A stretch of 38,721 nucleotides of DNA, taken from a virus. The notes below the pieces were generated by a model. The model was not told the DNA's origin and did not search any database. It saw nothing but the letters and a program-made list of their open reading frames with translations. The stretch spans positions 1 to 38,721 of the IMG/VR virus record IMGVR_UViG_3300036832_001484, one strand, 5' to 3'. The translations under genes were made by a program, and so were the position numbers. Shown here in pieces: positions 12,571-34,435 of the stretch; position 1 is the first letter of the stretch; each line of letters starts with the position of its first letter.

Positions 12571-14100
12571 CTACCACATATCAATGTTGCCAAGTGAGCT
12601 TGCAACTCCATAACAGAGACAATCAACCAAATCGTCCTCTTGATCTTTCAAACCAACATTAAATGTAAAGATTTGTTTTACCATATGATTTGCGTGACGC
12701 TGCTTAAAATCAATAGTTTTATGGTATGCATTTTTGCTTATTTTACATTTTCCAGTATTTGTGTACCCTGAAATTGATAGAGCGCGTGGCATTTTCCCAA
12801 GTTGTACCAATTTGCTATCAATTGCAGTCGCCATCCAGTTATTTCGATTACATTGTTCCAGAAGCATTGTTCCAGAACCTTTATCTTCAATTAAAGCCCC
12901 TATTGTTCCTTGAACTGCATGGCATTCACGAGAAAAATATTCTAATTTCTCATATACCATAGGTATCCAATCAATTAATAAACTAACAGCAACTTGCTGC
13001 AAATCATAATCTAAAATTGTCAAAGGCCATTCACCATCCTTATTAAGAAAATGTTGATTTAAAGCAAAGTAAATGACGCCTGTGGCATCATGTTCTGAAC
13101 CTGTTTTAACTCCAGTATCAATAATTGCAAATACTGACTCGCACCATTTAGGATAGTCAACAGGTAACCCATCAGCCCCCATAAAATCTTTCTCAAGAAA
13201 GAACGTGCCGCCAGGAGGCTGCGGATTTTGTTGATAAAGTGATTCAAAATCTCGGAAGCCCAATATTTTACGCTTTCTTTCAAGAGCTTCTGTATTCTCC
13301 CATGCAGGCCAAAGTGGTTCGCCTACTTTACGTGGAGGTATAAGTGGATCATCTTCAACAGCGAACGCCGGTAAAGAAATAATGACCCATTTGTCACCAC
13401 CTTTCTCCATTTCGTGAATAAGTTTGCCACCTAAATCATCTAAATGCCAGCGCGTCTGAATCAATATGATTCGCGCATTTGGCTTTAATCGAGTCACTAA
13501 GTCTGATTTATACCACTCGAAAGTTTTTTCTCTAACAATTTCACTTTCTGCTTCTTCTCTCGATTTGACTGGATCATCAATAATAGCTAAATCAGCACGT
13601 CGGCCAGTAATTGCTCCACCCACACCAGCAGCGAAGTATTCACTACCGTTGGTTGTTTCCCATCTCGCTGCGGCGCGATTTGATTCATCAATCGAATACC
13701 CAAGAATTCCTTGTTTGAGCAAGATTTTATTTCTTACGCGGCGTCCAAAGCGTTCAGCCAATTCGCCAGTATGTGAACAACCAATAATTGAAGTACGAGG
13801 ATATTTTAAGAACCAAAAACAAGGGAAAATTTCACTAACATATGTTGACTTTGCACTACCTGGTGGCATAAAGATCATTAATCGGTCAATTTCACCATTT
13901 AATACTTGATCTAATTTTTCTATCAAGAATTCGTGATGACGTGCAGGTTCAAATCCAAAATCTCTTACACACTCACGCGACCATTGAAGTAGTGACGTGC
14001 GACATTTGCGCTTCCATCGCTCAGTCTTATATTTGACGAGCATGGAATTACGTATCTTTTCAAGATAATTTTCGTCTGGCGTAGGGATTGATATTGACAC
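12571..14100 (-). CDS. terL: Terminase large subunit (packaging ATPase-nuclease)
   Basis: 509 residues. The N-terminal ATPase has Walker A PPGSAKST at 79-86, Walker B LAIIDD at 171-176 with the catalytic acidic residue after it, and the coupling-type IILIQTRWHLDDL motif. The C-terminal RNase H-like nuclease shows IIDTGVKTGSEHD near 328, GALIEDKGSG and the final DDLVDCLCYG, supplying the metal-binding acids. This is the Terminase_6 / phage Gp17 pattern: it cuts concatemeric DNA and pumps it through the portal. The start is a GTG without a strong ribosome-binding site. It is the first gene of the leftward operon, 278 nt from the divergent NusG-like gene; the small subunit is elsewhere (24520-25194). 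Confidence 0.95.
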   Translation of the reverse strand: MSISIPTPDENYLEKIRNSMLVKYKTERWKRKCRTSLLQWSRECVRDFGFEPARHHEFLIEKLDQVLNGEIDRLMIFMPPGSAKSTYVSEIFPCFWFLKYPRTSIIGCSHTGELAERFGRRVRNKILLKQGILGYSIDESNRAAARWETTNGSEYFAAGVGGAITGRRADLAIIDDPVKSREEAESEIVREKTFEWYKSDLVTRLKPNARIILIQTRWHLDDLGGKLIHEMEKGGDKWVIISLPAFAVEDDPLIPPRKVGEPLWPAWENTEALERKRKILGFRDFESLYQQNPQPPGGTFFLEKDFMGADGLPVDYPKWCESVFAIIDTGVKTGSEHDATGVIYFALNQHFLNKDGEWPLTILDYDLQQVAVSLLIDWIPMVYEKLEYFSRECHAVQGTIGALIEDKGSGTMLLEQCNRNNWMATAIDSKLVQLGKMPRALSISGYTNTGKCKISKNAYHKTIDFKQRHANHMVKQIFTFNVGLKDQEDDLVDCLCYGVASSLGNIDMW

Positions 14101-14377
14101 ATCTTATTCTGAATTTAGGGGACACTTCACCGTTGCGCCCAAATGGTCGCTACATTATCAAAATAAATATGTTTCCTTTATGGAAAATTTGAAAAACATA
14201 ATTTACGGAAAATCGAGGGCGAAACGGGAACCCCACATGTTGCCTCTCAAATTACGGCAAAAGTATGTCCGCATTGCGGTTTGCGACATTTTTATTAAAC
14301 AAAAATGTGATGTGATATTTTCACTCTTGCACTCTCCGCGGATTTGTGCAATAATATGATCCGGTGGAGGAAATCAA
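14101..14377. promoter_or_regulatory. Divergent control region between terL and the NusG-like gene
   Basis: A 277-nt AT-rich spacer. On the plus strand it carries the promoter given separately. It also contains dyads: TTGCC / GGCAA around an 11-nt gap (near 14241-14263), a CCGC-ATT-GCGG core inside TGTC ... GACA (near 14270-14292), and GTGA-tattt-TCAC before the promoter. I see no minus-strand promoter of the TTGC type for terL; a TGATAAT hexamer region near 14155 is a weak candidate. Late-gene transcription may therefore need a phage-specific signal or read-through. Confidence 0.5.
14327..14357 (+). promoter_or_regulatory. Promoter with TCCGCGGA palindrome (NusG-like operon)
   Basis: The -35 TTGCAC (14327-14332) is followed by a 17-nt spacer ending TTTGTGC and the -10 AATAAT (14350-14355; TAATAT overlaps it). 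The 8-bp palindrome TCCGCGGA at 14335-14342 sits in the spacer. The promoter at 26609 carries the same palindrome at nearly the same offset, suggesting a shared operator or activator site. Transcription would begin about 14362, just before the GGAGG ribosome-binding site. Confidence 0.65.
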
Positions 14378-14932
14378 ATGTTAGACATGTTTTCAACTAC
14401 TCAAGAACAAGAATATATGGACGTATTTGGAGAATATCAAAAATATGATAAGTTCTTTTGGTCTGTAGGGATGTTTTCTGGTAATGGAGCCAAAGAGACC
14501 ATACGATACGCCTTAGAGGCGCACCTTGAAGTATTTTATCCTCATAGACTAAATAAAAGTGGTAATTTCGTTCCTTTATTTGGTAATTATTTATTCATAG
14601 AATATATATTACCAACTACAGTGATGATATGCAGACAATCATCTAAGTTTTATGGATTTATTAGTTTTGATGGTCAACCAGAATTAGTTAGACGCAATTC
14701 TATTGATGAATGTTTGAGACTATTAAAAATGGGCAAGTATAATCACGTATTTACTCACCATTCTTACATCAGAAAAGGCACTCTTGTAAGAATACTCAGT
14801 GAAGATAATTTTAATGGTAAATTGGTTAGATTATTATGCGATGTTGCGCCAGATATGCCAAACAATAAAAGAGTTCCAGTAGATTTTGGCAATATAAAGC
14901 TAATGATCGAAATAGGCAAGATACGGATTTAG
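14378..14932 (+). CDS. NusG/RfaH-like transcription elongation (antitermination) factor
   Basis: 184 residues. An NGN-like domain starts at WSVGMFSGNGAKETIR (28-43) and contains EVFYPHR (51-57) and the diagnostic PLFGNYLFIE (66-75), aligning with RfaH PLFPNYLFVE, then a FDGQPELV strand. A KOW-type C-terminal domain begins near residue 130 (SYIRKGTLVRILSEDNFNGK). Family members bind the RNA polymerase clamp, suppress pausing and Rho-dependent or hairpin termination, and couple to ribosomes. As the first gene after a phage-type promoter with GGAGG before its ATG, it would be made early. The right arm is full of terminator-like hairpins, so an antiterminator for those units is the attractive role; that target is inference. 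Confidence 0.82.
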   Translation: MLDMFSTTQEQEYMDVFGEYQKYDKFFWSVGMFSGNGAKETIRYALEAHLEVFYPHRLNKSGNFVPLFGNYLFIEYILPTTVMICRQSSKFYGFISFDGQPELVRRNSIDECLRLLKMGKYNHVFTHHSYIRKGTLVRILSEDNFNGKLVRLLCDVAPDMPNNKRVPVDFGNIKLMIEIGKIRI

Positions 14933-14934
14933 CA

Positions 14935-14980
14935 TGATAGCATGGAGAGCTGATTAAATTGTCAGCTGTCCGGGCTATCA
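14935..14980 (+). promoter_or_regulatory. Nested stem-loop leader before protease gene
   Basis: An inverted repeat TGATAGC ... GCTATCA encloses a second one, AGCTGA ... TCAGCT, giving a two-tier hairpin between the NusG-like stop and the protease ribosome-binding site (AGGAG before base 15001). It has no T-tract, so it looks more like an RNA stability or translation-control element than a terminator. Confidence 0.45.
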
Positions 14981-15000
14981 CGCCCATAGGAGTAGAACTT

Positions 15001-16110
15001 ATGAAAACATTGTCAAAATTGGGTGGACTCGCTGCGTTGCTTCTCTCAACTACGGCTATGGCCCAAGTGGTAACTAGAAGTCCTGAGGCGCCACCAAATC
15101 AACCTACAATTGACTATCAGAATGCCAAACCTATGCCGCTACCGCAGGCCAATCAACCTGCGCCAACCGGCGTGGACCTTCTGCGCAATCAAATCAATCC
15201 ATCACAAGTGTTCGGAAAACCAGGCGCGACAAAAGGTGGAGCAGGGTCAGGACAAGAAAACCCTCTGGATCTGGCGCCAAGCCAGGTCTTCCCTGAAGAT
15301 CTTGGTGTAGTGCCAGAAGAATTTGGTACTTCTGGTCTACCTTACTCGACCAGCAGGGTAAATGCGTTTCGTAACATCACTTCCAAGTTCTACCCATATC
15401 GGGCAGCTGGGAGGGTATTCTTCCAAATCGGTACATCAAACTTTGTATGCTCTGGATCAATGATTGATCCAGGCATCGTGGTACTAGCGGCGCACTGCGT
15501 AGCTCAATACGGATCGAACCAGTTCTATCACAATTGGGTATTCGTTCCGGCCTACAACAATGGGCGCGCGCCTTATGGCACGTTTGCAGCCAAACAGGCT
15601 TGGATCTTAACATCCTATCTCAATGGATCTGATCCTTGTGCGCAATCCGGTGTTATCTGTCGAGACGATGTAGCATTACTGGTTCTTTTCAGTAATGCCG
15701 GAAACACTGTAGGATGGTACGGCTATGGCTTTAATGGCTATAGCTACAATAACTCAGGAGAAGCTGAGATCACTGAGCTTGGTTATCCTGTTGCTCTTGA
15801 TCGAGGAGTGTTGATGGAGCGCAATGATTCCAGAGGGGACATTGTAGGATCACTCTCCAATAATACTGTCATCGGCTCATTGATGACAGGCGGTTCGAGC
15901 GGTGGACCTTGGCTGGTTAATTTCGGCCAAACACCAGCGCTTAATGGTACAAGCTTCGGCAGCTTCCCTGCTCACAACATCGTTGTTGGTGTCACCTCTT
16001 GGGGCTTCATCAACGACGCTGTGAAAGAGCAAGGAGCTTCATCATTTACCAGCAACAATATTGTCCCACTGGTAAATGCTGCTTGCAATGGTTCACCATC
16101 TTCTTGCTAA
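15001..16110 (+). CDS. Secreted trypsin-like (S1/V8-type) serine protease
   Basis: 369 residues. MKTLSKLGGLAALLLSTTAM with cleavage after AMA (residue 21) is a classical Sec signal peptide. A Pro/Gln-rich propeptide-like stretch runs to about 115. The catalytic domain shows His165 in VLAAHC, Asp222 or 223 in CRDDVALL, and Ser300 in GGSSGGPW; Cys150/166 and Cys213/220 could form disulphides. This layout is that of glutamyl-endopeptidase/trypsin-like enzymes exported to the periplasm or outside. The start is set by AGGAG 9 nt upstream; an ATG-less extension of 14 codons exists but breaks the signal peptide. A secreted protease is unusual cargo for a phage; roles in envelope remodelling, lysis or biofilm degradation are all possible. 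Confidence 0.88.
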   Translation: MKTLSKLGGLAALLLSTTAMAQVVTRSPEAPPNQPTIDYQNAKPMPLPQANQPAPTGVDLLRNQINPSQVFGKPGATKGGAGSGQENPLDLAPSQVFPEDLGVVPEEFGTSGLPYSTSRVNAFRNITSKFYPYRAAGRVFFQIGTSNFVCSGSMIDPGIVVLAAHCVAQYGSNQFYHNWVFVPAYNNGRAPYGTFAAKQAWILTSYLNGSDPCAQSGVICRDDVALLVLFSNAGNTVGWYGYGFNGYSYNNSGEAEITELGYPVALDRGVLMERNDSRGDIVGSLSNNTVIGSLMTGGSSGGPWLVNFGQTPALNGTSFGSFPAHNIVVGVTSWGFINDAVKEQGASSFTSNNIVPLVNAACNGSPSSC

Positions 16111-16125
16111 CAACTAACTGAAATG

Positions 16126-16155
16126 TCTATGGGGCGTTTAGCTGCGCCCCATAGA
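16126..16155 (+). terminator. Perfect 11-bp hairpin after protease gene
   Basis: TCTATGGGGCG and CGCCCCATAGA form a perfect 11-bp stem around an 8-nt loop. Only TTG follows, not a proper T-run, so termination may be partial. It lies between the protease stop and the ribosome-binding site of the next gene and could also protect the upstream mRNA 3' end. Confidence 0.6.
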
Positions 16156-16174
16156 TTGCCTCAAGGAGAAAATC

Positions 16175-16447
16175 ATGCAAACGCTATCAAAACTCACACT
16201 AGCCGCGCTTCTATTCTCAACTCCAGTATTGGCGCAAGGCGTCATAATTGGCCCTGGTGGAGTAGAAGTTCAACCGCCATATCGTGAATACAATCAACAA
16301 GAATACCATCAACAATACTATCATCATCATAGAGGTGGTGTAGATTGTGCTGAGCTGCGCGCCGCGTGTCTTCATAAAGAAGAACTAGGTGAAGAAGGCC
16401 AAGGCAACTGCCAGCGCTATCGCACGTACTGCCGCGGATACCACTAA
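16175..16447 (+). CDS. Small secreted cysteine-containing protein
   Basis: 90 residues. MQTLSKLTLAALLFSTPVLA is a Sec signal peptide whose first half closely resembles that of the preceding protease (M-x-TLSKL), hinting at a shared origin. The mature part has a Tyr/Gln/His-rich stretch (NQQEYHQQYYHHHRGG), which might bind metal, and four cysteines (VDCAELRAAC ... GNCQRYRTYC) that could form two disulphides in the periplasm. No enzymatic motif. AAGGAG precedes the ATG. It may partner or inhibit the protease, but that is a guess from adjacency. Confidence 0.75.
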   Translation: MQTLSKLTLAALLFSTPVLAQGVIIGPGGVEVQPPYREYNQQEYHQQYYHHHRGGVDCAELRAACLHKEELGEEGQGNCQRYRTYCRGYH

Positions 16448-16458
16448 GGAGCGCCACC

Positions 16459-16743
16459 ATGCAATGCAAACAATGCTTCGGACGCGGATTGAGATGGACA
16501 AGTGATGAGGACTACGGTCCATGTCCTCAATGTCACGGCTTCGGTATCATTAGCTGTTGTGATACTGATTTACCTTCAGCTGATGATAGGCTCATTGACC
16601 CGCCAGTAACCAGAAGCAAAGTCAATCATGAAGTGTACTTCGTACCAAAGATGCTAGCGACAGGATATGAGATGCCATTCTCTGCTGCGCCACCAGATAC
16701 ACTTCAACAAGAGATCATTGATCTGATCTTGAAATACTACTAA
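16459..16743 (+). CDS. DnaJ-type zinc-ribbon small protein
   Basis: 94 residues. The first 30 hold two CxxCxGxG-like knuckles, CKQCFGRG and CPQCHGFG, the zinc-binding repeat of DnaJ central domains; SCCD follows. The remainder is acidic/hydrophobic without recognised motif and ends in a helix (LQQEIIDLILKYY). The start follows AAGGAGCGCCACC. Phages often encode such free zinc ribbons, whose partners are mostly unknown. A second protein of this type is at 29254-29562. Confidence 0.7.
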   Translation: MQCKQCFGRGLRWTSDEDYGPCPQCHGFGIISCCDTDLPSADDRLIDPPVTRSKVNHEVYFVPKMLATGYEMPFSAAPPDTLQQEIIDLILKYY

Positions 16744-16761
16744 CCACAAAGGAGCGCACCC

Positions 16762-17136
16762 ATGCCTAGAAGGAGCTGGTCAAATGATGAGAATGTCAGC
16801 TTCATTGATGAGTGGAATAAAGGTACGCCAATTGCTGTGATGGTTACTATCTTCGATATTGGCCAATCATCAATTTCGCACAAAGCCAAAAAGATGGGGC
16901 TCAAGCCACGTTACGTCTATTTTCTCCCAAAAGACAGAAAGCCAAAAGCGCCACCCTTAGATGCGCCCCCTCCACCATTGCGTAATGGCCTCACCATCAT
17001 GGAACTTGGTGAGAATAATTGTCGCTGGCTCATAGAGGACAAGCTTTACTGTGGTAAGCCAATTGGAAGCTTTGGCTTGCCATACTGCGCTAAACACTAC
17101 AAAATGTCAGTTCAGAAAAAGATAGAGGTAGTCTAA
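16762..17136 (+). CDS. gcrA-like: GcrA-family cell-cycle regulator
   Basis: 124 residues with both ends of GcrA. The N-terminal helix-turn-helix WSNDENVSFIDEWNKGTPIA ... SSISHKAKKMGLKPR (6-50) matches the WTxERVxxLxxLWxxG ... GKxxRLGLxxR pattern. After a Pro-rich linker the C-terminus has C87-R-W, C97-G and LPYC109-x2-H112, as in GcrA's CRWPIG ... FCG ... PYCxxH module that contacts sigma-70. GcrA is an alphaproteobacterial transcription factor acting at sigma-70 promoters containing methylated GANTC sites, controlling division and CcrM-linked genes. A phage copy could hold the host in a favourable cell-cycle state or redirect RNA polymerase to phage promoters. It shares TAATG with the next gene. 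Confidence 0.85.
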   Translation: MPRRSWSNDENVSFIDEWNKGTPIAVMVTIFDIGQSSISHKAKKMGLKPRYVYFLPKDRKPKAPPLDAPPPPLRNGLTIMELGENNCRWLIEDKLYCGKPIGSFGLPYCAKHYKMSVQKKIEVV

Positions 17137-17339
17137 TGCCAATAACTATCGAGCAATTCAAACAAGCAACTGGTACTATGCCTACGCTTGATGATATGGA
17201 TATGGTTAACTGCCCAGACCAAGGTCATCAAGGACATATGTTGTGCGGTTGGTGCAATCAATGCAACAAGCCGCGCTTCATATGCGAGCATTACTTTGAT
17301 ATTTATGACCCAAGTTCAAATTATGAGAAGGAGTGGTAA
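17136..17339 (+). CDS. Small Cys/His-containing protein
   Basis: 67 residues. The central CPDQGHQGHMLCGWCNQCNK carries four cysteines and two histidines, a likely zinc-binding knuckle; CEHYFDIYDP follows. The ATG overlaps the gcrA-like stop and its own TAA overlaps the next ATG, so it is coupled on both sides. No known function; possibly a small regulatory zinc protein. Confidence 0.65.
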   Translation: MPITIEQFKQATGTMPTLDDMDMVNCPDQGHQGHMLCGWCNQCNKPRFICEHYFDIYDPSSNYEKEW

Positions 17340-17566
17340 TGCACATCAAATTCGTCAACGATCTATGGCAAGTTTACGCATGGCGCAACACGGATGAGTG
17401 CCTTGCTTGGAGTTATACGGTGCGCGCCTTAGTGATAGCATTCAAGGAGCGCCCCAATTTGATGAGTGAGATCCACAAATATAGAAATTTTCACATTTTC
17501 GCTCACGGTGGCTTCAAGCATACTTTAATGGATGATATCAATTGGAGAAATGCTGATGAACATTAA
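17339..17566 (+). CDS. Small hypothetical protein
   Basis: 75 residues: MHIKFVNDLWQVYAWRNTDE, rich in Trp, His and Phe, with a helical middle (YTVRALVIAFKERPNLMSEI) that is amphipathic rather than a membrane helix. AAGGAG lies 6 nt before the ATG, which overlaps the upstream stop (TAATG). The end overlaps the nuclease start by 11 nt. No family recognised. Confidence 0.65.
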   Translation: MHIKFVNDLWQVYAWRNTDECLAWSYTVRALVIAFKERPNLMSEIHKYRNFHIFAHGGFKHTLMDDINWRNADEH

Positions 17567-17987
17567 CGATGAACTAGACCTTCGCCATTGGTTCAAAAAA
17601 GAAATCGGTCTACAAGTTCAGATTCAATGGGTAGAACCAGCTAAATACGGAAGCACCGTAGGCGTGCCAGATTGTTATGCTAATTGTGGATCAGCAAAAG
17701 TAGGTATTGAGTTGAAGATCTGGGAGCGCACCAAAAATGGCATCAAATGCAAGATGCGCCCCATCCAACGAAGATGGCATCATATGAACATGAAAAGTGG
17801 TGGTAGGAGCGCAGTTTTAGCTCACGTACACCAGCAATTCATATTAGTGAGAGGAGATCACATTCCACTGCGCGACTATGCTTCTCACAAAGACAGTGGC
17901 TGTTCTGATGGACAACTCATGTATGAGACCATCTTTATGGACTTGCCGCGCCTTCTATTTGATGAATCTTATGGCTTTTGGTTATAG
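17556..17987 (+). CDS. VRR-NUC-type (PD-(D/E)xK) nuclease
   Basis: 143 residues from the ATG with GGAG 8 nt upstream. The PD-(D/E)xK active site is legible: Glu27 on the first helix/strand, GVPD39, then GIE52LK54, followed by RPIQRRWHHMNMKSGG, the Gln-containing helix typical of VRR-NUC proteins. This fold includes Holliday-junction resolvases and replication/repair nucleases; stand-alone phage versions of about 100-150 residues are common. Likely role: processing branched DNA before packaging or in recombination. It shares this possible job with the RuvC-like protein at 22264-22710, so one of them may do something else. The C-terminal 50 residues are not recognised. Confidence 0.75.
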   Translation: MNINDELDLRHWFKKEIGLQVQIQWVEPAKYGSTVGVPDCYANCGSAKVGIELKIWERTKNGIKCKMRPIQRRWHHMNMKSGGRSAVLAHVHQQFILVRGDHIPLRDYASHKDSGCSDGQLMYETIFMDLPRLLFDESYGFWL

Positions 17988-17995
17988 AGGAGAGA

Positions 17996-18169
17996 ATGAT
18001 GAAACGCAAACAAGAATATTCATACGATGAGAAGTGTGAAGAATTGGCAGCGCGCTTTTTACAAGATGAGGATCTGAGCGTAGATGCGCACCACAAAGCT
18101 GTCCAAGAACTTGCTCAAGAAATCCAAAATACTATCGAAACTTGGATCAAATATGATATGGAAAAGTGA
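17996..18169 (+). CDS. Small helical protein
   Basis: 57 residues, MMKRKQEYSYDEKCEELAAR, then a continuous charged helix ending NTIETWIKYDMEK. GAGGAG lies immediately upstream; the second ATG (17999) has the better spacing. The stop TGA overlaps the ATG of the membrane peptide. No family recognised. Confidence 0.6.
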   Translation: MMKRKQEYSYDEKCEELAARFLQDEDLSVDAHHKAVQELAQEIQNTIETWIKYDMEK

Positions 18170-18258
18170 TGATGGCTGATGAGCTGAAATTGTGGGCGCG
18201 AGTGCTTGCGCTTGCGCTCATTTTGCTCATTGTACTAGCAGCGCGCCATGCAAGATAA
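18169..18258 (+). CDS. 29-residue single-pass membrane peptide
   Basis: A very short frame starting in an ATGA overlap with the upstream stop: MMADELKLWARVLALALILL, continuing IVLAARHAR. Residues 10-24 are an uninterrupted hydrophobic helix with a basic C-terminal tail, so it should insert in the inner membrane with the tail positive. It overlaps the next gene by 11 nt. Small coupled membrane peptides in phages act as holin-like, spanin-accessory or host-takeover factors. Nothing here distinguishes them, and expression needs proof. Confidence 0.55.
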   Translation: MMADELKLWARVLALALILLIVLAARHAR

Positions 18259-18430
18259 GATTTGGGTCACTCGTGATGGGCGTAGAATCTTGGTGCGCCA
18301 GATGGAGCGGTGCCACATACTCAACTGCATAGCCAAGATCGAACGCGATCCCAAAGGTTGGCGCCACAACTATTTGGAGCGCCTCCAGATTGAATTGATC
18401 ATAAGAGATATTTTACAGGAGCGCCACTAG
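18248..18430 (+). CDS. Small basic hypothetical protein
   Basis: 60 residues, MQDKIWVTRDGRRILVRQME, then CHILNCIAKIERDPKGWRHN and a C-terminal helix (LERLQIELIIRDILQERH). The N-terminus resembles a short beta-hairpin sequence often found in small phage proteins (IWVTRDGRRI). It starts inside the membrane-peptide gene. It is the last gene before the strong terminator at 18549-18582. Confidence 0.6.
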   Translation: MQDKIWVTRDGRRILVRQMERCHILNCIAKIERDPKGWRHNYLERLQIELIIRDILQERH

Positions 18431-18548
18431 ATTTAGCACGCGATGGTTCTACATTTATAATTTGTAGTGAAGTTGCTATTGATGAGAATTGATGACATTC
18501 GGGGGAGGGCCAGCGCTCCAGGCGCTCGCTCAAACAGGCAAAAACGGA

Positions 18549-18582
18549 AAAAGCCGACAACGCTTGCGCGTTGTCGGCTTTT
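18549..18582. terminator. Strong bidirectional intrinsic terminator
   Basis: GCCGACAACGC - TTGC - GCGTTGTCGGC forms a perfect 11-bp stem, extended to 15 bp by flanking A4/T4, with T-tracts on both strands. It closes the rightward operon that starts at the NusG-like gene and also faces the minus-strand gene at 18634-19125. Confidence 0.88.
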
Positions 18583-18599
18583 CAAAAAGGGAGAGAAGG

Positions 18600-18623
18600 T
18601 TAGGCGCGATTGCTCGCGCCTAA
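18600..18623 (-). terminator. Hairpin downstream of the GC-island gene
   Basis: TTAGGCGCGA - TTGC - TCGCGCCTAA is a perfect 10-bp stem just after the minus-strand stop. On that strand TTTTTG follows about 11 nt later. Together with the neighbouring terminator it isolates the island from the rightward operon. Confidence 0.6.
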
Positions 18624-18633
18624 CGCCTAGGTG

Positions 18634-19125
18634 TTACGCGACATCGGGCGCAGGCAACGCGCGTTGCGCATCGGGCGCGACAATCGCGGGCGCGATTGCC
18701 TTTGCCTTTGCGCTAGGCGCGACAACCGGCCCGCGTTCCCCGCGCGTTATCGAATACCCGACTGCGCCTTCGTTGTAGCGCGACCGGCGATAGATATGCG
18801 ACAGGCATGCCTTAACGAGCGAAAGCGCATCTTTGTCGGGTGCACGTTCGCTACGCACAAGACGCTTGTCTAACGCGCGGGCGATGTCGCGGACATCGTG
18901 TTCCCCGCATTCGCGGCCTAGCAGGTACATGCTAACGATACCGCGATTAGAGTAATCGCGGGAATGCGTCGCGCCGAACGGCGCATCTACGTTCGCGTTG
19001 CGCGAACCGAGCGCATCGATACGCGCGTCCGTTTTCGCGCGATACTCGAAAGCGCGCTTTGCCTTGCGTGCGAGCAACTTGCGCTCGTTAGCGCGAAGAA
19101 CAGTCGTCGAAATTGCCTTTTGCAT
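18634..19125 (-). CDS. Arg/Ala-rich basic protein in GC-rich island
   Basis: 163 residues, no family recognised. The N-terminal 40 (VLRANERKLLARKAKRAFEY) are a strongly basic helix; the middle (SRDYSNRGIVSMYLLGRECG, DIARALDKRLVRSE, LVKACLSHIYRRSRYNEGAV) looks globular and helical; the C-terminus is Ala/Pro-rich (APSAKAKAIAPAIVAPDAQR). An AAAGGA ribosome-binding site and a TTGCAT/TATATC promoter precede it, so the frame appears real. Codons are dominated by GCG, CGC and CGA, unlike the AT-rich neighbours, suggesting recent acquisition. The DNA is itself densely palindromic (for example GCAACGCGCGTTGC at 18654-18667 and CCGCGATTA/TAATCGCGG near 18941-18961). A DNA-binding repressor or inhibitor is plausible given the surrounding operators. 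Confidence 0.65.
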   Translation of the reverse strand: MQKAISTTVLRANERKLLARKAKRAFEYRAKTDARIDALGSRNANVDAPFGATHSRDYSNRGIVSMYLLGRECGEHDVRDIARALDKRLVRSERAPDKDALSLVKACLSHIYRRSRYNEGAVGYSITRGERGPVVAPSAKAKAIAPAIVAPDAQRALPAPDVA

Positions 19126-19136
19126 TGTACTAGTCC

Positions 19137-19206
19137 TTTAACGAGAGAGAGGCGGAAGCCGCGCCTTGCGCGGGGGAAGTCCGCCGCGTTAGCAACGCGC
19201 TAACGC
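19137..19206 (-). promoter_or_regulatory. Highly folded 5' leader of the GC-island gene
   Basis: Between promoter and start codon lie GCGTTAGC - AACGC - GCTAACGC (8-bp stem, 19186-19206) and GGCGG ... CCGCC enclosing the perfect CCGCGC - CTT - GCGCGG hairpin (about 19151-19185). Two or three stable stems in a 90-nt leader suggest translational or attenuation control of the downstream gene. Confidence 0.55.
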
Positions 19207-19212
19207 AATACG

Positions 19213-19250
19213 GATATAAGAACATACGAACAGGAATGCAAGCTTTCCTG
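19213..19250 (-). promoter_or_regulatory. Minus-strand promoter with overlapping operator dyad
   Basis: The -35 TTGCAT (reverse complement at 19236-19241), a 17-nt spacer and -10 TATATC (19213-19218) point at the 18634-19125 gene. A dyad CAGGAA - N8 - TTCCTG (19231-19250) covers the -35, the position expected for a repressor site. Confidence 0.6.
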
Positions 19251-19327
19251 CCCTATTATTACGAACTTGTAATGACCCGGACATGTAAAAAAGTTTACAG
19301 GTGTTTTCCCGAATTTTTGGCCGATCG

Positions 19328-19409
19328 TTCTGCTCCGCAGAAATACGGTTATGTGATCGCGTCGCTTCTGCGCAGCAGAAGCTGCTCTGGTCGCTTCTGT
19401 TTTACAGAA
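19328..19409. repeat. Three spaced TTCTGY-N3-RCAGAA dyads
   Basis: Three perfect 15-bp inverted repeats of one design: TTCTGCTCCGCAGAA (19328-19342), TTCTGCGCAGCAGAA (19366-19380) and TTCTGTTTTACAGAA (19395-19409). Centres are 38 and 29 bp apart. Conserved arms with variable 3-nt centres indicate binding sites for a dimeric protein rather than RNA hairpins. Further dyads ATTAC/GTAAT (19258-19273) and TGTAAA/TTTACA (about 19284-19299) lie between them and the promoter. Confidence 0.6.
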
Positions 19410-19429
19410 ATGTGGAAACGTGCTCGGCG

Positions 19430-20400
19430 CAGCCGGCGATGGAGTGAACTCGTCTGTGGCGCCGGCTATGGCTGGATATGTGGACGGATCTTGGTGGCGC
19501 CAGGCGATGGGCTGGATATGTGGCGCGCATGGATGGTGGCTGGGCTCTGGTGGGTCGGCCCTCAGCCTGGTCCCACTTATTCGCTTATCCACATATTCAT
19601 TTCACTTCTCATATTTTCACATCTTCACATATTCATTTCGCTTTGGCAGGAAAGCACACTTTCTTGCTCTAGCTTTGGCTAAATAACATTCTCAAAGCGT
19701 TCTGCTTTTATTCGCATCCCACATATGTAGATCCACAAGGAAGGAGAACAAAGCCAGAACATAGAACGAATCAGATACCTACAGAACTATTATGTATATT
19801 GGATGGTGAAATGAATATGTGGATGGCTACATTAATATGGATGGTGAATATGTGGATAGCTATACTGCATGGTGACTATATGTATATGGATATGTGGATG
19901 GTGAATATGTGAATGGCTATGGTGATGGCTAATAGTCTATAGTTGCGCCACCCCACATATTCACCATCTACCATAGCCATTGGATGGTCACCATAGCCAT
20001 CACCATGCACTATGACAGCCACCATCGGCCATCACCATCCACCATAGATCTTATACTTTAACCATTGGTCCACATATTCACCCCAATCGACCGTGCGCCT
20101 TGGTGGCGCCATGTGTGCAGAACATGATGGCCACCCACCATTGACCACCATCACCACCTCAGTTGCGCCACCATCACCATGTTTATGAGCCATCCACCAT
20201 AGACCTTAAACCTTAGTTGCGCCCCAATCAATTACTCATAATTTTCTGAAAATCACAATCCTAACATACTCTATAAGTTAGGAGTAAGGTAGGAGCAAAA
20301 TCATTAGAAATATCATATACTTACTATACTACTCCTATCTTATCTAAGATATCTAACTGAAAATGCATACATGTCACTGTGATTTTTTACGCCGAGTGGT
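19430..20400. other. Candidate replication origin: iterons, DnaA box, AT-rich flank
   Basis: About 1 kb without a credible gene. The core ATATGTGG / CCACATAT occurs about ten times: forward near 19475, 19515, 19815, 19849, 19890 and 19905; reverse near 19590, 19629, 19954 and 20070. Three longer direct repeats start GGATGGTGAATATGTGG (19801, with a 5-nt insertion; 19839; 19896), and inverted CCATAGCCAT/TCACCATC strings follow to about 20190. TTATCCACA at 19585-19593 is a perfect DnaA box, and the iterons' TGTGGATAG differs from its complement by one base. From 20230 the DNA is very AT-rich, a likely unwinding region. It lies directly downstream of the helicase gene. Iterons plus DnaA box plus AT-rich tract is the textbook origin layout; function is inferred. 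Confidence 0.65.
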
Positions 20401-20417
20401 GACCATAAGGTAGGAGC
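20285..20417. repeat. TAAGGTAGGAGC repeats flanking the AT-rich tract
   Basis: The 12-mer TAAGGTAGGAGC occurs directly at 20285-20296 and 20406-20417, and in inverted form with one change (CTCCTATCTTA, 20333-20343). Three copies around the most AT-rich stretch suggest a protein-binding array, perhaps for an initiator. Confidence 0.45.
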
Positions 20418-20438
20418 GATGAAATGGCTGGCAACCCC

Positions 20439-20508
20439 ATGTAAACGTTGCATTTTCTGCTCCTAGCACCGATCAAGTGTGTAAAAGGAATTCTACAGTT
20501 GTTTACAT
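20439..20508. repeat. ATGTAAAC / GTTTACAT inverted repeat
   Basis: Perfect 8-bp arms at 20439-20446 and 20501-20508, 54 nt apart, in the non-coding DNA just downstream of the helicase stop codon. It may be an operator pair or part of an RNA 3' end structure; no T-tract follows on the minus strand. Confidence 0.35.
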
Positions 20509-20513
20509 GTGTA

Positions 20514-22259
20514 TTATGATCTGTCCATAATTTCTGGCTCTGGCGCATCCCAGTCCATTGGCTCTGGCCATACAAAATTTCTCTTTAATCGAAAATCCCA
20601 CAGAGCGCGACATGTCGCAAGAGGTGGCAAGACATAGCAATACCACTTTTCTTTACCAGATCGTTTCTCTTCAATAATGCTTATGACACTTCTACCATCA
20701 TCATTCATAACTACTCTACCATTTACCACCAAAGGCAAAAATTCTCTTAGTCTACGGCCAATTTGTGTTTCAGTGAGTGGGGTGGCGCGGCTGTAGTATT
20801 TTTTCATAAATTTGAAATAATCTTGTCTAAGCACTTCTCTGCCAGAACATACCCAAATGGTATCGTCAGCTTTGATTTTATTGTCTTTCTCATTGAAATA
20901 TAGCACACCTTTCATCAATAATTCATCCCACCATTTCTCTTCTGTAGTTTGTCCACGTCTAATTTGATCTACCAATGCATCCGTATGAAGCGCCTCTCTG
21001 CAATTGAAATCATCAATAGATCCGTTTTCTAATTCATACATGAATGCCTCATATCCACCATTATTTAGTTCGTTTTGTATAGCAGCAAAATATGAATGAT
21101 CTTGCTGATGTGTATTATTTACATGAAGTACCATGTAGCGCCGCTCATCTGTAGTGGCAGGTATAGTGTGACCTGGATTAGCTGTCATAAATATGCGCAT
21201 GACATTAGTCAAATCTAATATCGGGCCATTTTTCTTTTCTGCTTTAAGAGTTTTACCTGTGATATAATCATTTAGCGTTCCTGTATGGCGCCTATCATTA
21301 CCATAAGTAACTTCTTCTAATGCCAACATAATTCTGTTCTGTAAATGATCTCTAAATCGTCCATAAATATCTTCACTATTAGATGTTCTGTAACAATGAC
21401 GTGAGCGCCGCTCAAATGTAAATTTACCATCTATGAGCGCTTCTAATATGTCAATTAAAAATGATTTACCAACACCTTTGTCACCTATGAGTAATATGGC
21501 ATATTCTACTTTCTCCCATGGACGTTGTATCATATGACGTAAATATTTTATGAGTTTTTGATATTTTCTCTCATCATTATTACAAATGATATCTCTAATA
21601 TATGCCATCGTTAATGGGCAATTACCTGGCGCGCCTTTAATCACAAAGCCACGATATGTATTGAATATTTTCAGACCTGTTTGGCAATGTGGATCGAATA
21701 CATAACCTACAAATGTGCGGCGCTTAGGTGACTCTAACCATACTTTGGTAGCTGGAACTTCTTTTGATACTGCGTTACCTCCTGATGTAGTGCTTTGTAT
21801 GGTTAATTTAATATTCTCATGCTTTTCTATAAAAGCTTTACGCGTCATAAAATCAACTTCGCCGTTTTCTTCTTTCAATATCCAAAATGTACCACCAATA
21901 GTGATGGCAGCATATTTGGTATTGAATGATATGATAATTTCTTCTATTGGATCTTTGGGCGTTTTAATTTGCCCAAACATGTCTTTGGCATCAATGATGT
22001 TCTCGCTTGGCGGCGCGACTTCGCTCCATATCTTATCATATTCTTCTACACTCATGAGTTTTTGTAATGATTGTAATATATTATTGATCCGTTCTTTGTA
22101 TGATTTCATCACATTGGCGCGCTGCATGACATCGATTGTATCTTCAAGAAGAAAATTATCTAATTTATCAGTTTTAATCCATCGCTCATATTTATCTAGC
22201 TCAGCACGAATGAAATTTACTTCTTCTGCACCTTTGAAATTAGCCCAAGCTATTGGCAT
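20514..22259 (-). CDS. DUF5906-type replicative helicase/ATPase
   Basis: 581 residues. The ATPase core has Walker A GDKGVGKS at 259-266, an acidic Walker B (IMLALEE, 310-316) and sensor-1 MRIFMTANP with the TTDERRYMVL arginine region, the SF3/primase-helicase pattern of DUF5906 (NrS-1 polymerase-like helicase) proteins. The N-terminal 220 residues include FDPHCQTGLKIFNTYRGFVI, typical of the linker that precedes this core, but no primase active site is evident, so priming is probably done by the separate PrimPol at 37327-38565. The C-terminal 150 residues (winged-helix-like, TETQIGRRLREFLPLVVNGR) may bind DNA. It is the last gene of a four-gene replication operon and lies beside the candidate origin. 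Confidence 0.82.
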   Translation of the reverse strand: MPIAWANFKGAEEVNFIRAELDKYERWIKTDKLDNFLLEDTIDVMQRANVMKSYKERINNILQSLQKLMSVEEYDKIWSEVAPPSENIIDAKDMFGQIKTPKDPIEEIIISFNTKYAAITIGGTFWILKEENGEVDFMTRKAFIEKHENIKLTIQSTTSGGNAVSKEVPATKVWLESPKRRTFVGYVFDPHCQTGLKIFNTYRGFVIKGAPGNCPLTMAYIRDIICNNDERKYQKLIKYLRHMIQRPWEKVEYAILLIGDKGVGKSFLIDILEALIDGKFTFERRSRHCYRTSNSEDIYGRFRDHLQNRIMLALEEVTYGNDRRHTGTLNDYITGKTLKAEKKNGPILDLTNVMRIFMTANPGHTIPATTDERRYMVLHVNNTHQQDHSYFAAIQNELNNGGYEAFMYELENGSIDDFNCREALHTDALVDQIRRGQTTEEKWWDELLMKGVLYFNEKDNKIKADDTIWVCSGREVLRQDYFKFMKKYYSRATPLTETQIGRRLREFLPLVVNGRVVMNDDGRSVISIIEEKRSGKEKWYCYVLPPLATCRALWDFRLKRNFVWPEPMDWDAPEPEIMDRS

Positions 22260-22263
22260 CTCA

Positions 22264-22710
22264 TCACGCTCCTATAAGTTTCATTCCACGCTTTCTTATA
22301 TTACGCGCTGCATTAATATCAGCATTGCCTTTTAGACCACAATTTAAGCACAAAAATTCACTTTGAGAAAGTCTATTCATATCATTAATATTACCACATC
22401 TACTGCATTCTTGAGAACTATAATGTGGCGCAACTTTAATGATTTTTGACGGGAGAATACATAATCCGCTTTCTAACATCATATACGCACTGAATAATTT
22501 ATCTCTAGTGTGATATGGAATATTACCCATTTCAAAGAAATCTAAATCTTCGATACAAATATAATCTGGTATTGTTTTACAATATAATGACAATAATGAA
22601 TTAGCAACATAATTACGCGATAAACCATATCTAGGATATGTGAATGCATTTCCATCATTAGTCATGATAAGCCAACGTAAACCAACATCTATGCCAATAA
22701 ATTTATTCAA
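22264..22710 (-). CDS. Miniature TnpB-like RuvC nuclease with zinc ribbon
   Basis: 148 residues comprising only the catalytic end of TnpB/OrfB. RuvC-I is FIGIDVGLR with Asp8; RuvC-II is CIEDL with Glu54; RuvC-III is NADINAARNI with Asp131. The inserted zinc ribbon is APHYSSQECSRCG ... FLCLNCG with Cys102, 105, 121 and 124. All catalytic acids are present. TnpB is normally about 350-450 residues; the WED and REC lobes that hold guide RNA are absent. The start is TTG, overlapping the upstream stop (TTGA), with AGGGGA ahead, and the gene stops 4 nt before the helicase start, so it is an integrated member of the replication operon rather than an insertion sequence. A junction resolvase or structure-specific nuclease is the likely role. 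Confidence 0.85.
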   Translation of the reverse strand: MNKFIGIDVGLRWLIMTNDGNAFTYPRYGLSRNYVANSLLSLYCKTIPDYICIEDLDFFEMGNIPYHTRDKLFSAYMMLESGLCILPSKIIKVAPHYSSQECSRCGNINDMNRLSQSEFLCLNCGLKGNADINAARNIRKRGMKLIGA

Positions 22711-23429: not shown

Positions 23430-23431
23430 TT

Positions 23432-23626: not shown

Positions 23627-23712
23627 TTCCATCACTCCGTTTAAACGACAGAACGATTCCGAGTGTGTCCCAACATTGTGTCTAAAGTAAGGCGCCCGTG
23701 GCACAATCTACC

Positions 23713-23769: not shown

Positions 23770-23775
23770 GCGAAC

Positions 23776-25194: not shown

Positions 25195-25200
25195 CTCATG

Positions 25201-25343: not shown

Positions 25344-25354
25344 TACTCAGATCC

Positions 25355-26362: not shown

Positions 26363-26377
26363 TTCAGTTACTCCGAT

Positions 26378-26546: not shown

Positions 26547-26573
26547 CAGTGAACCTCGCCACATACTCACAAG

Positions 26574-26608: not shown

Positions 26609-26637
26609 TTGCTTTCCTCCGCGGACTATGCTAGACT
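26609..26637 (+). promoter_or_regulatory. Promoter of the right-arm operon, with TCCGCGGA palindrome
   Basis: The -35 TTGCTT (26609-26614), a 17-nt spacer ending TATGC, and -10 TAGACT (26632-26637). TCCGCGGA (26618-26625) occupies the same part of the spacer as in the promoter at 14327. The first RNA hairpin starts at about the expected +1 (26642), as usual for stable structured transcripts. Confidence 0.65.
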
Positions 26638-26640
26638 ATA

Positions 26641-27138
26641 GTTCGGGAGAGGAAGAGATTCCCTCCCGAAGTGAAGTAGACCGAGGGTGAATATGATCCT
26701 CGGGAGTGAGTAGCAAACAAAGAACAAGAAAACTGAAGTGGCGCGCTCCCTCGAAGCTATTTGAACTGTGAAGCACTTAAACCGCCCTAGCGCGCTAGGG
26801 TGAGCGAAGGCGTTTATTCAATAAGGCAGAAGCCGCCTGAATCTTTGAACGCTTAGTACCTCGCCCATGAAGCGCTACAAGGTGGGATACGTTTAACGCC
26901 AGTTAAAGAGCGACAAAATTGGCAAGGATGCGATAGGAAATGGAAGCTAGATAGCACATGATCGCAGACAGGGAAAGAAACTGAATATGAGTTTCTAGCG
27001 CCTGCAATCCGACAGCTTAGTGAGACACGTAGATGACAGGACTAAATGAAATAGTGCTTGTGATCGTAAAACTCGCACACTGAGCAGACAATCACACAGA
27101 GCACAGAGAGCGTTCTGAAATGGGGCGCCTCTGTGCTC
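26641..27138 (+). ncRNA. Large folded leader or stand-alone RNA (about 500 nt)
   Basis: No credible frame, but a dense succession of stems: TTCGGGA/TCCCGAA with GGAA-GAGA-TTCC at its tip (GNRA loop, 26642-26670); CCGAGG/CCTCGG (26681-26703); the perfect palindrome CCCTAGCGCGCTAGGG (26785-26800); GCGTT.ATTCA ... TGAAT.AACGC (about 26811-26852) around GGC-AGAA-GCC; CCCAT/GTGGG (26864-26886); TTTAAC-GCCA-GTTAAA (26892-26907); TGCGAT/ATCGCA (26929-26966); AGAAACT/AGTTTCT (26976-26996); TTAGT/ACTAA (27017-27045). At the end GAGCACAGAG/CTCTGTGCTC (27099-27138) competes with GTGCT.TGTGAT/ATCACA.AGCAC (27054-27104), an either/or switch. It starts at a promoter and ends before the first gene. It resembles ornate phage RNAs in style; I cannot assign a family. 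Confidence 0.65.
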
Positions 27139-27171
27139 GATGGGATTGTTTCCCTAAATGAGGCTACTACA

Positions 27172-27833: not shown

Positions 27834-28028
27834 ATGCCGAGTAGTGGAGTGAGTAACTATTATAGTTCTATGCGAGCGATGAGCGCTCGCAAATTCAAAG
27901 TGGATTGTGTTAGACGAAGAAATGGTAGGCCATATACTTGTATGGAGATGTGGCCAGAGATGAAGAATGCATGGTGCGATGATTGTCGCAATGAAATGCA
28001 AAAGTTTGTGAAGAAATTATCTAAATGA
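27834..28028 (+). CDS. Small Cys-containing basic protein
   Basis: 64 residues, MPSSGVSNYYSSMRAMSARK. VDCVRRRNGRPYTC and WCDDCRNEMQK give C...C and CxxC pairs that could bind one zinc. AAAGGAG precedes the ATG. Ends in a Lys-rich helix. No family recognised; followed by the first terminator cassette. Confidence 0.65.
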   Translation: MPSSGVSNYYSSMRAMSARKFKVDCVRRRNGRPYTCMEMWPEMKNAWCDDCRNEMQKFVKKLSK

Positions 28029-28033
28029 TATTT

Positions 28034-28074
28034 GGGGCGCTACTTAGGTGGCGCTCCTATTAGGCACTTTTGCC
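28034..28074 (+). terminator. Terminator/hairpin cassette A
   Basis: GGGGCGC - TACTTAGGTG - GCGCTCC (7 bp with one G-U pair), then TATTAG, then the short hairpin GGCA-CTTT-TGCC (28063-28074), then AAAATGAGGCTATGTT and ATG. First copy of the recurring intergenic unit. Confidence 0.7.
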
Positions 28075-28095
28075 ACAACAAAATGAGGCTATGTT

Positions 28096-28392
28096 ATGAA
28101 TAAGATTGAATGGAACGAACTATGCGACGAAAAAGTGGAGAATGAGAAAGAAATCCTAAGTGTTGAGTACAATGCAACTAATGAAGCGGAAAAGAAAATC
28201 CGTTCATTATACTTGCATGGGACTACTGAGGAAGGAGTGAAAATAACGATATTTGAGACAAACGAGTCCGATGGAACATCGGCTGCTCCACCATACTTCT
28301 GTGTGGGGCATCTAACTCCGGCTGAATGTTTGGCAGGAGAAGTAGCTTATGTGGAGAAGAACGGTTACATTAATGACCGTTTAGGCAAATAA
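28096..28392 (+). CDS. Acidic hypothetical protein
   Basis: 98 residues: MNKIEWNELCDEKVENEKEI, a helical charged N-terminus, then KKIRSLYLHGTTEEGVKITI and YFCVGHLTPAECLAGEVAYV. No family recognised. It is a monocistronic unit bounded by cassettes A and B, each with a terminator-like stem, and is preceded by the standard GAGGCTA site. Confidence 0.65.
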   Translation: MNKIEWNELCDEKVENEKEILSVEYNATNEAEKKIRSLYLHGTTEEGVKITIFETNESDGTSAAPPYFCVGHLTPAECLAGEVAYVEKNGYINDRLGK

Positions 28393-28399
28393 TTGATTT

Positions 28400-28437
28400 G
28401 GGACGCGTGCGATGCGTCCCTATTAGGCACTTTTGCC
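28400..28437 (+). terminator. Terminator/hairpin cassette B
   Basis: GGGACGC - GTGCGAT - GCGTCCC is a perfect 7-bp stem, followed by TATTAG and GGCA-CTTT-TGCC (28426-28437), then CTAAATGAGGCTACGTT and ATG. It has the GTGCGAT loop, also seen in cassette D. Confidence 0.72.
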
Positions 28438-28459
28438 ACAACCTAAATGAGGCTACGTT

Positions 28460-28741: not shown

Positions 28742-28966
28742 ATGCCATTAACTGCAAACATGGTATTGCGCATCATTCGCGATGCGGAATTTAAGCTCGA
28801 TGGATATGCAGAAACATATGTGAATGCACTTCCACGTGCTGAAGCAGAGTATGGTGAACGTGGAGTACGCGTTCAGATACTCTACATTCTGAGCAACATG
28901 CGCGCTTCGGGTCCAAAGCAAAAAGAAGCGAAGAAACAACTTCAAAAATTAGCAAAAACTAATTGA
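28742..28966 (+). CDS. Small helical basic protein
   Basis: 74 residues, MPLTANMVLRIIRDAEFKLD ... YILSNMRASGPKQKEAKKQL. The C-terminus is Lys-rich. TAGGAGGCTATT precedes the ATG. The 54-nt gap upstream holds a second GAGGCTAGA-ATG, which opens a 31-codon overlapping frame I do not accept as a gene. No family recognised. Confidence 0.65.
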   Translation: MPLTANMVLRIIRDAEFKLDGYAETYVNALPRAEAEYGERGVRVQILYILSNMRASGPKQKEAKKQLQKLAKTN

Positions 28967-28972
28967 ACTATG

Positions 28973-29014
28973 GCGCGCTACTTATGTGGCGCGCTTCTTT
29001 TAGGCAATTTTGCC
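28973..29014 (+). terminator. Terminator/hairpin cassette C
   Basis: GCGCGC - TACTTATGTG - GCGCGC with TTCTTTT immediately after (a good intrinsic terminator), then GGCAATTTTGCC (29003-29014), then ATAACTAAATGAGGCTAAC and ATG. The loop TACTTATGTG nearly repeats that of cassettes A and E. Confidence 0.78.
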
Positions 29015-29033
29015 ATAACTAAATGAGGCTAAC

Positions 29034-29881: not shown

Positions 29882-30073
29882 ATGAAAAAGAAGGCAATGA
29901 GTGTGCGTGAGCGTGTTCTTCAAAGTTTGAATGATCAAGCAGCGCACAAGATTGCTAGACTTGAAGCAATGATAGCTCGGCTTCAAGATGAGCGCGAAGC
30001 TGATGCATTGGAAATCAGTTTCCTGCATCAAAGAGTTTTGAAATATGAATGCAAAATGAAAGGAAACTATTGA
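29882..30073 (+). CDS. Small leucine-zipper-like protein
   Basis: 63 residues, MKKKAMSVRERVLQSLNDQA followed by a coiled coil HKIARLEAMIARLQDEREAD with heptad-spaced Leu/Ile and a basic end. It probably dimerises. AAGAGGCTACA precedes the ATG. No family recognised. Confidence 0.68.
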   Translation: MKKKAMSVRERVLQSLNDQAAHKIARLEAMIARLQDEREADALEISFLHQRVLKYECKMKGNY

Positions 30074-30077
30074 ATTT

Positions 30078-30116
30078 GAGGCGCGTGCGATGCGCCTCTA
30101 TTTGGCAATACTGCCA
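30078..30116 (+). terminator. Terminator/hairpin cassette D
   Basis: GAGGCGC - GTGCGAT - GCGCCTC (perfect 7 bp), TATTT, then TGGCA-ATAC-TGCCA (30103-30116), then TGGAGACCATACT and ATG. Loop identical to cassette B although the stem sequence differs, that is, compensatory change. Confidence 0.75.
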
Positions 30117-30351: not shown

Positions 30352-30368
30352 TTGAGTAATTGAACTTG

Positions 30369-30390
30369 GGGCGCTGCTTATGTGGCGCCC
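30369..30390 (+). terminator. Terminator cassette E (short hairpin degenerate)
   Basis: GGGCGC - TGCTTATGTG - GCGCCC (6 bp, one more G available), ACTTTTAGG, then TAATAGGAGGCTACA and ATG. The GGCA...TGCC hairpin is reduced to AGGTAAT, so this copy lacks the second half. Confidence 0.7.
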
Positions 30391-30414
30391 ACTTTTAGGT
30401 AATAGGAGGCTACA

Positions 30415-31525: not shown

Positions 31526-31562
31526 TAGTGGCGCAGCAGCGCCACTATTTGGCACTTTTGCT
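31526..31562 (+). terminator. Terminator/hairpin cassette F
   Basis: TAGTGGCGC - AGCA - GCGCCACTA is a perfect 9-bp stem, then TTT, then GGCA-CTTT-TGCT (31551-31562), then ACAACAGAGGTTATC and ATG. The AGCA tetraloop form matches the GGCGCAGCAGCGC hairpin on the minus strand near 26480-26495. Confidence 0.75.
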
Positions 31563-31577
31563 ACAACAGAGGTTATC

Positions 31578-31892
31578 ATGGCACATAAATATCAAATTTG
31601 GTATATGAAACCTTCATGGTTTATAAATGGAAATGCATTTAAAGAAAAACCAAATCCACAAGATTTGGGATATACGCATATCTACCTAAAAGACTTTGAG
31701 ATGGAAAATAGTAATCTTGAAATCATCTATGCTGCTATGCAAGGTGAAGTTTGGTCACCAAATGGTGAAGCAAGAGATCTGATAAGATCAAAAGGTCTTC
31801 AGCATACCTCAATGTCTATTGGTGATGTTATAGTAAATGATTTGGGTACAGCATATATGGTTGCTTCAGAAGGATTTTTATTACTGACGTAA
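31578..31892 (+). CDS. YodL-like domain protein
   Basis: 104 residues. YQIWYMKPSWFINGNAF, THIYLKDFEMENSNLEIIYA, QGEVWSPNGEARDLIRSKGL and HTSMSIGDVIVNDLGTAYMV follow the YodL-type pattern, whose diagnostic feature is HTSMSVGDVI. Such proteins occur in phages and conjugative elements; their biochemical role is not established. The gene follows cassette F and precedes the expanded cassette G. Confidence 0.7.
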   Translation: MAHKYQIWYMKPSWFINGNAFKEKPNPQDLGYTHIYLKDFEMENSNLEIIYAAMQGEVWSPNGEARDLIRSKGLQHTSMSIGDVIVNDLGTAYMVASEGFLLLT

Positions 31893-34353: not shown

Positions 34354-34435
34354 TGGCGATTCTGCCCCCCAGGCACCACTAGGTATGACTGGCCGAGCGC
34401 AAGCTCGGCCTTTTTCATTTGTTAGGCAATTTGCC
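34349..34435 (+). terminator. Cassette H: double terminator plus GGCAATTTGCC hairpin
   Basis: First hairpin CCTAGTGG ... CCACTAGG (34349-34383) with nested TGCC/GGCA. Second, a canonical intrinsic terminator GGCCGAGC-GCAA-GCTCGGCC followed by TTTTT (34391-34415, GNRA loop). Then TTAGGCAATTTGCCA (34425-34435) and TGGAGGTTACT-ATG. This is the strongest stop in the right arm, yet it is followed by the same short hairpin and site as the others. Confidence 0.85.

Follow-up and report, generated by a model that had tools for sequence, protein, structure and literature searches.

A phage-encoded protein of the NusG/Spt5 superfamily and a structured right-arm leader RNA in a lineage of uncultivated phages

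The window, i.e. the whole stretch of DNA analysed in this work, has 38,721 bases and is held in IMG/VR as the record of an uncultivated phage. The left structural arm (TerL, portal, capsid) is on the minus strand, and the remainder consists of a plus-strand early operon, the primase block, the gene of the small terminase and the ~11-kb right arm with about 30 small genes (Table 1). A short transposase-like ORF of 148 amino acids (22264-22710), which has matches to PHROG transposases, adjoins the primase gene.

The gene of interest is a plus-strand ORF of 184 amino acids that starts with ATG, is preceded by a Shine-Dalgarno sequence (GGAGG, 14366-14370) and stands at the head of the early operon. 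The initial annotation had placed it behind a TTGC-type promoter, and such a promoter is indeed found, with TTGCAC (14327-14332) and AATAAT (14350-14355) separated by a 17-bp spacer. The transcript is expected to start ~16 nt upstream of the ATG, so the gene would have no leader of its own. The sequence motifs named in the same annotation are present as well, PLFGNYLFIE at residues 66-75 and EVFYPHR at residues 51-57, and the region described there as a KOW-type end is modelled as a KOW-like barrel. Between this gene and the next one (14933-14985) there is a nested stem, GATAGC...GCTATC around AGCTGA...TCAGCT, whose build resembles the leader-end element described below. The ORF directly downstream (14959-16110) was assigned by eye as a candidate trypsin/V8-like serine protease, as it has a GGSSGGPW motif and a signal-like start; the PHROG search gave no match for it.

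Table 1. Positions of the genes, promoters and RNA elements discussed in the text
Feature	Position	Strand	Remarks
Large terminase subunit (TerL)	12571..14100	-	Divergent neighbour marking the conserved slot
Intergenic region between TerL and the NusG-like gene	14101..14326	.	Direct repeat ATTACGGC-N6-TATGTC near 14252, also in relatives
Promoter-like TTGCAC-N17-AATAAT of the NusG-like gene	14327..14355	+	TCCGCGGA at 14335-14342, inside the spacer
Phage gene of the NusG/RfaH superfamily	14378..14932	+	NGN residues ~25-117, KOW-like barrel ~131-184
Right-arm operon promoter TTGCTT-N17-TAGACT	26609..26637	+	TCCGCGGA at 26618-26625, inside the spacer
ORF-free, strongly folded right-arm leader RNA, ~530 nt	26644..27171	+	Fold compared with shuffles
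Leader 3' element, ~65-66 nt	27084..27152	+	Covarying outer stem, internal loop, invariant inner stem GAGCACAG/CTGTGYTC
Right-arm unit, GC hairpin and TATTAGGCACTTTTGCCACAAC before the Shine-Dalgarno sequence	28021..28091	+	
Right-arm unit, type as 28021..28091	28383..28454	+	
Right-arm unit, type as 28021..28091	28959..29031	+	Terminator rule passed
Right-arm unit, type as 28021..28091	30061..30116	+	
Right-arm unit, hairpin half only	30355..30395	+	Terminator rule passed
Right-arm unit, diverged copy	31539..31579	+	
Right-arm unit, hairpin with a real U tract (GGCCTTTTTCATTTG) and TTAGGCAATTTGCC	34391..34435	+	

When searched alone, the window protein (P0001) matches Pfam NusG with E=0.0056, below the Pfam cut-off, and T. 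maritima NusG with E=0.09; it has no PHROG match and no relatives were found among viral contigs. Relatives were reached via the neighbourhoods of TerL and of the major capsid protein, giving a phage family of 12 members, and these relatives are metagenomic contigs throughout, many of them fragments. A search of bacterial genomes with this family found no relatives. At the level of the family, Pfam NusG matches 8 of the 12 members (best E 2.4e-4), the NCBIfam UpxY antiterminator model matches 11 (best 1.9e-6) and is followed by the RfaH, NusG and LoaP models, and T. maritima NusG (2lq8) is matched with E=0.002. The KOW sequence model recognises one member out of 12, and has no match in the window. 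Invariant positions in the 12 sequences include W28, G37, P55, Y71-L72-F73, P101 and G119.

The AlphaFold model built from the single sequence was unusable (pLDDT 36), and with the family alignment pLDDT rose to 78. In the latter model the predicted NGN domain is best matched by the NGN domain of RfaH (8pen; Z 11.0, 2.1 A over 92 residues, VIA-align), and the predicted C-terminal barrel (residues 131-184) superimposes on the KOW domain of Spt5 (4ytl; Z 6.4, 1.8 A over 47 residues). The C-terminal domain consists of strands in this model, AlphaFold giving one state only. All Foldseek matches in the PDB at E<=0.001 are NusG, Spt5 or RfaH structures. Because the family profiles and the fold matches by Foldseek and VIA-align agree, we consider it well supported that ORF 14378-14932 is a real gene, the predicted product of which belongs to the NusG/Spt5 superfamily and contains an NGN and a KOW domain. 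The proposal of a phage-encoded NusG/RfaH paralogue, made from the sequence at the outset, is thus borne out by profiles and model alike, neither of which points to another fold. The protein, in which Y71 and F73 are invariant throughout the family, would presumably contact RNA polymerase at its beta' clamp helices. One could object that P0001 alone stays under the Pfam cut-off and that the canonical PG of the NusG motif is replaced (FGNYLF), i.e. that we are dealing with a diverged NGN-KOW protein in some other RNA-binding role that is no transcription factor. However, NYLF is also found in RfaH, YLF is invariant in 12 out of 12 members and the fold matches cover both domains, so that this explanation seems highly improbable.

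The gene occupies a conserved slot. Provided that the identity of TerL reaches 56% and the sequence upstream is long enough, all nine of the loci reached via the major capsid protein carry the NusG-like gene, divergent from TerL. A comparison of close orthologues (dN 0.031, dS 0.197, dN/dS 0.16) shows that the gene is under purifying selection. In two relatives a NusG-family gene of another type lies directly 5' of TerL and in the same orientation, and several more have one elsewhere. The more distant capsid-relatives with such other NusG-family genes, some of them just upstream of TerL, include L014, L016, G019, G020, G039 and G040; a profile comparison between the present family and this other set gave E 1.7e-5 and a probability of 78%. 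Those relatives of the capsid lineage that have been cultured (Pantoea PdC23 and Yersinia, Shewanella, Klebsiella and Actinobacillus phages) lack the gene, and tblastn against 50,697 phage records revealed next to nothing similar, P0001 having matches only at E>1. BFVD contains a few NusG-fold proteins from uncultured phages, and the names RfaH or NusG have been given to two of these.

The position of the gene, which heads the early operon and adjoins TerL lineage-wide, might suggest that the protein suppresses termination in its own early operon and/or in the divergent late (structural) operon, and not in the right arm. The shared intergenic region also contains an operator-like direct repeat, ATTRCGGC-N5-6-TANGGC, which is present in the window (14252) and in relatives (L007 2972; L011 1316; L019 2341; L089 4097). 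On the other hand, the 5' UTR of the gene is only ~16 nt long, and neither notable structure nor a conserved hairpin was found in it, and we regard this possibility as quite unlikely.

The promoter of the NusG-like gene and that of the right-arm operon have a sequence in common. The latter consists of TTGCTT (26609-26614), a 17-bp spacer and TAGACT (26632-26637), and the 8-mer TCCGCGGA has two exact copies in the window, one in each of the two spacers, a copy number that was matched or exceeded in 2 of 100 shuffles. The statement of the initial annotation that this palindrome recurs only at the right-arm promoter therefore holds within the window, but it does not extend to the relatives: their homologous promoters keep the TTGC and the extended -10 (TGTGCTATART), not the exact palindrome. 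The idea of TCCGCGGA as an operator of the whole lineage was rejected on these grounds. Upstream of the same promoter, TTAGGCAATTTTGCCA lies on the minus strand (26377-26392), 5' of the start of a divergent gene of 335 amino acids (26362-25355), and it precedes the same divergent gene, with small changes, in the relatives L090 and L246.

The first right-arm gene begins with the ATG at 27172, and the ~530 nt 5' of it contain no plus-strand gene. This leader is predicted to fold far more strongly than its shuffled versions (z -7.5, and -8.7 in a second run, vs -0.7 to -6 in right-arm coding windows). The Rfam search of the window gave nothing credible, the leader having no match, and blastn and nhmmer found no sequence relative of the leader outside its 3' element. 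Leaders occur at the same place in six relatives (G001, G002, G003, G021, G024, G026), with lengths of 249-575 nt and z values of -3.1 to -5.9, statistics behind which there are few independent lineages. Three types of leader, without any overall sequence in common, end alike, with CAGAGCACAG...CTGTGYTC inside an outer stem. The outer stem shows compensatory variants (ACAATC/GATTGT, GATAAC/GTTATT, GACAGC/GCTGTC, GATAGC/GCTATT); in six sequences 96.9% of cells are paired and four pairs are changed on both sides, whereas slid controls reach at most 57% paired and at most one pair changed on both sides. CAGAGCACAG was not found outside these leader elements in the 2.8 Mb searched. A search of 2.9 million viral contigs for the pattern of the element gave 25 matches, nine of which have a paired outer stem, all from this lineage. 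Of these nine contigs, six reach as far as the terminase end, and the NusG gene is present in each of the six, the rest being fragments; the gene is found in none of the 16 matches that lack the outer stem. The co-occurrence of gene and element is weak evidence, because the phages are related and common descent may explain it. In addition, G003 has the NusG-like gene, and its leader is of a fourth type with a different unit at the end in place of the element, and G008, which has the most diverged homologue, is without a long leader.

Taken together, the explanation we favour, and which we regard as reasonably probable, is that the protein is a NusG paralogue specific to the phage, through which the host RNA polymerase becomes processive on the operons of the phage. 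It would be expressed early from its own promoter, and its NGN domain, judging from the family, would bind the elongating host RNA polymerase and keep it processive on long phage operons, either by making it resistant to pausing and termination or by shielding it from Rho. The main target would be the right arm, and loading, or the greatest effect, would most likely take place at the structured leader with the conserved 3' stem element. The binding to polymerase and the gain in processivity are what we infer from the protein family; the recruitment site and the regulon are inferred as well. The 3' element of the leader is the best candidate for a loading site, although it may also be a processing element; given its position and its co-occurrence with the gene, a role in recruiting the NusG-like protein is conceivable but doubtful.

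Recruitment by a hairpin of the ops or dfn type, as suggested in the initial annotation, found no support. Sequences resembling the ops element (GGCGGTAGCGTG, up to 3 mismatches) occur at 11 sites in the window vs 10.8 expected, and there is no dfn-like CUNCGG hairpin with at least four pairs in 26640-27180. The absence of such sites would also fit a general anti-polarity or host-takeover factor that has no specific loading site and competes with the host NusG for RNA polymerase, thereby acting everywhere as a block to Rho-dependent termination (or to host gene expression). The fold and the presumed binding surface are those of NusG, and G008 and G003 have the gene without the leader element, which is what one would expect of such a factor. 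But the specialised paralogues studied so far, RfaH and LoaP, are recruited to sites, and a conserved structured leader is present in the same genomes, and we therefore think a general factor rather unlikely.

The right arm of the window contains repeated units, in which a GC hairpin and TATTAGGCACTTTTGCCA, or a similar sequence, lie directly 5' of the Shine-Dalgarno sequence. The many hairpin/terminator units noted in the initial annotation were confirmed as far as hairpins are concerned: there are 36 hairpin/terminator-like units in 14000-33900, in excess of the 15.4 +/- 4.3 found in shuffles. Most of the repeated right-arm units do not look like terminators. The terminator rule is passed by no more than two of them (28972-28995 and 30369-30390), and most units of the window have the tail UAUUAGG, with short and interrupted U tracts. 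At most of the corresponding places before the Shine-Dalgarno sequence, the NusG-bearing relatives have predicted type II hammerhead ribozymes instead, so that the idea that all right-arm units are terminators was rejected. Nor do the units mark a NusG regulon with any clarity, since the NusG-like gene is present in four of the seven contigs with an exact unit match, and one of the other three, G022, has no homologue of the phage proteins tested. The unit made of a GC hairpin and (C)TTTTAGGCAATTTTGCCA before a start codon was seen in the window (28032, 28398, 28972, 30076, 34391) and in relatives (L090 13600; L245 16285; L248 13677), where its position is interchangeable with that of hammerheads.

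The hammerheads were found by pattern, GAYC-GAAA-[stem III]-UC/UA-[stem I]-CUGAYGA-RRUC, and do not match at Rfam thresholds. There are 25 distinct predicted sequences in the six relatives listed above; the three-stem core CUGANGA ... GAAA ... UH is fixed in all 25, the stems vary yet pair, and stem II is fully paired in all but one. None was found in the 15 capsid-relatives without this type of NusG. Arrays of hammerheads were located in the relatives L090 (12418, 12913, 15598), L093 (14441-17989), L095 (reverse complement, 12893-13742), L245 (13212-17201) and L249 (6134-11573).

Because type II hammerheads fill the same places in relatives, the units of the window look like RNA-processing elements rather than terminators that are overridden. 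This raises the question whether the leader element and the units are a processing system unrelated to the NusG-like protein, i.e. self-cleaving ribozymes or nuclease sites that define the 5' ends of mRNAs. Such a system would concern the regulon only and is compatible with the explanation given for the protein. Besides the hammerheads, it is in line with the fact that the leader element and the TTAGGCA unit share a kind of position and swap at leader ends; against it, the window has no type II hammerhead core, either by Rfam or by pattern search, and Rfam assigns no known ribozyme to the leader element or to the unit. We consider its chances to be slightly short of even. A more far-reaching combination, to which we give a small chance, is that a long structured leader RNA of a new type, with a conserved double-stem element, loads the NusG paralogue, in right arms that have self-cleaving or processing elements between their genes. 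These elements would be interchangeable, being type II hammerheads in relatives and a TTAGGCA double hairpin in the window, and the TTAGGCA unit or the leader element might represent a class of ribozyme so far undescribed. A phage lineage with a fixed NusG and a conserved structured leader would be a compact test system for the target choice of paralogues, and the hammerhead arrays in the same operons suggest that the phages cut a long transcript into single-gene messages.

It is instructive to compare the phage protein with known antitermination systems. By the tests made it is outside RfaH, LoaP and UpxY, because ops sites are at chance level, the leader has no UNCG hairpin and the model scores are far below the cut-offs. 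RfaH of E. coli relies on ops DNA in the leaders of its targets and has a fold-switching, autoinhibitory alpha-helical C-terminal domain. The phage protein resembles it in the NGN plus KOW architecture, in the PLF-x-NYLF-(V/I)E strand, in being matched best by its structure and, presumably, in a specialised operon-specific role. It differs in that the identity is ~18% over the fold, ops is not above chance in the window and the phage gene is fixed. UpxY of Bacteroides is the best NCBIfam match and its gene also heads an operon, but P0001 scores 16.1 bits against a curated cut-off of 100, and UpxY serves capsule operons, not phages. Likewise phage-encoded and of NusG fold are PHROG 6386 ('transcription antiterminator') and, from uncultured phage, A0A6J5MAV8 ('RfaH') and A0A6J5PZH6 ('NusG'); the similarity is weak, however (for the PHROG, 4 of the 12 members match, with a best E of 0.005, and P0001 does not). 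Lambda N and Q and HK022 put are phage systems by which the host RNA polymerase is led past the terminators of long operons, put acting as a structured leader RNA. Their proteins are unrelated, whereas here the NusG paralogue itself is phage-encoded. That phages hijack or block the host NusG is known. In their pertinent sections, reviews on NusG (PMC7819879, PMC7593976, PMC6391919) place specialised paralogues in bacteria and on plasmids and present phages as users of the host NusG, with no phage paralogues described there. The nearest working model is LoaP of Bacillus velezensis with its leader hairpin dfn (PMC12691694). The LoaP model of NCBIfam matches 2 of the 12 members (best E 0.013), and P0001 not at all at E<=1, and the phage leader lacks the UNCG hairpin of the dfn type; what the two systems have in common is a NusG paralogue linked to a long operon with a structured leader RNA.
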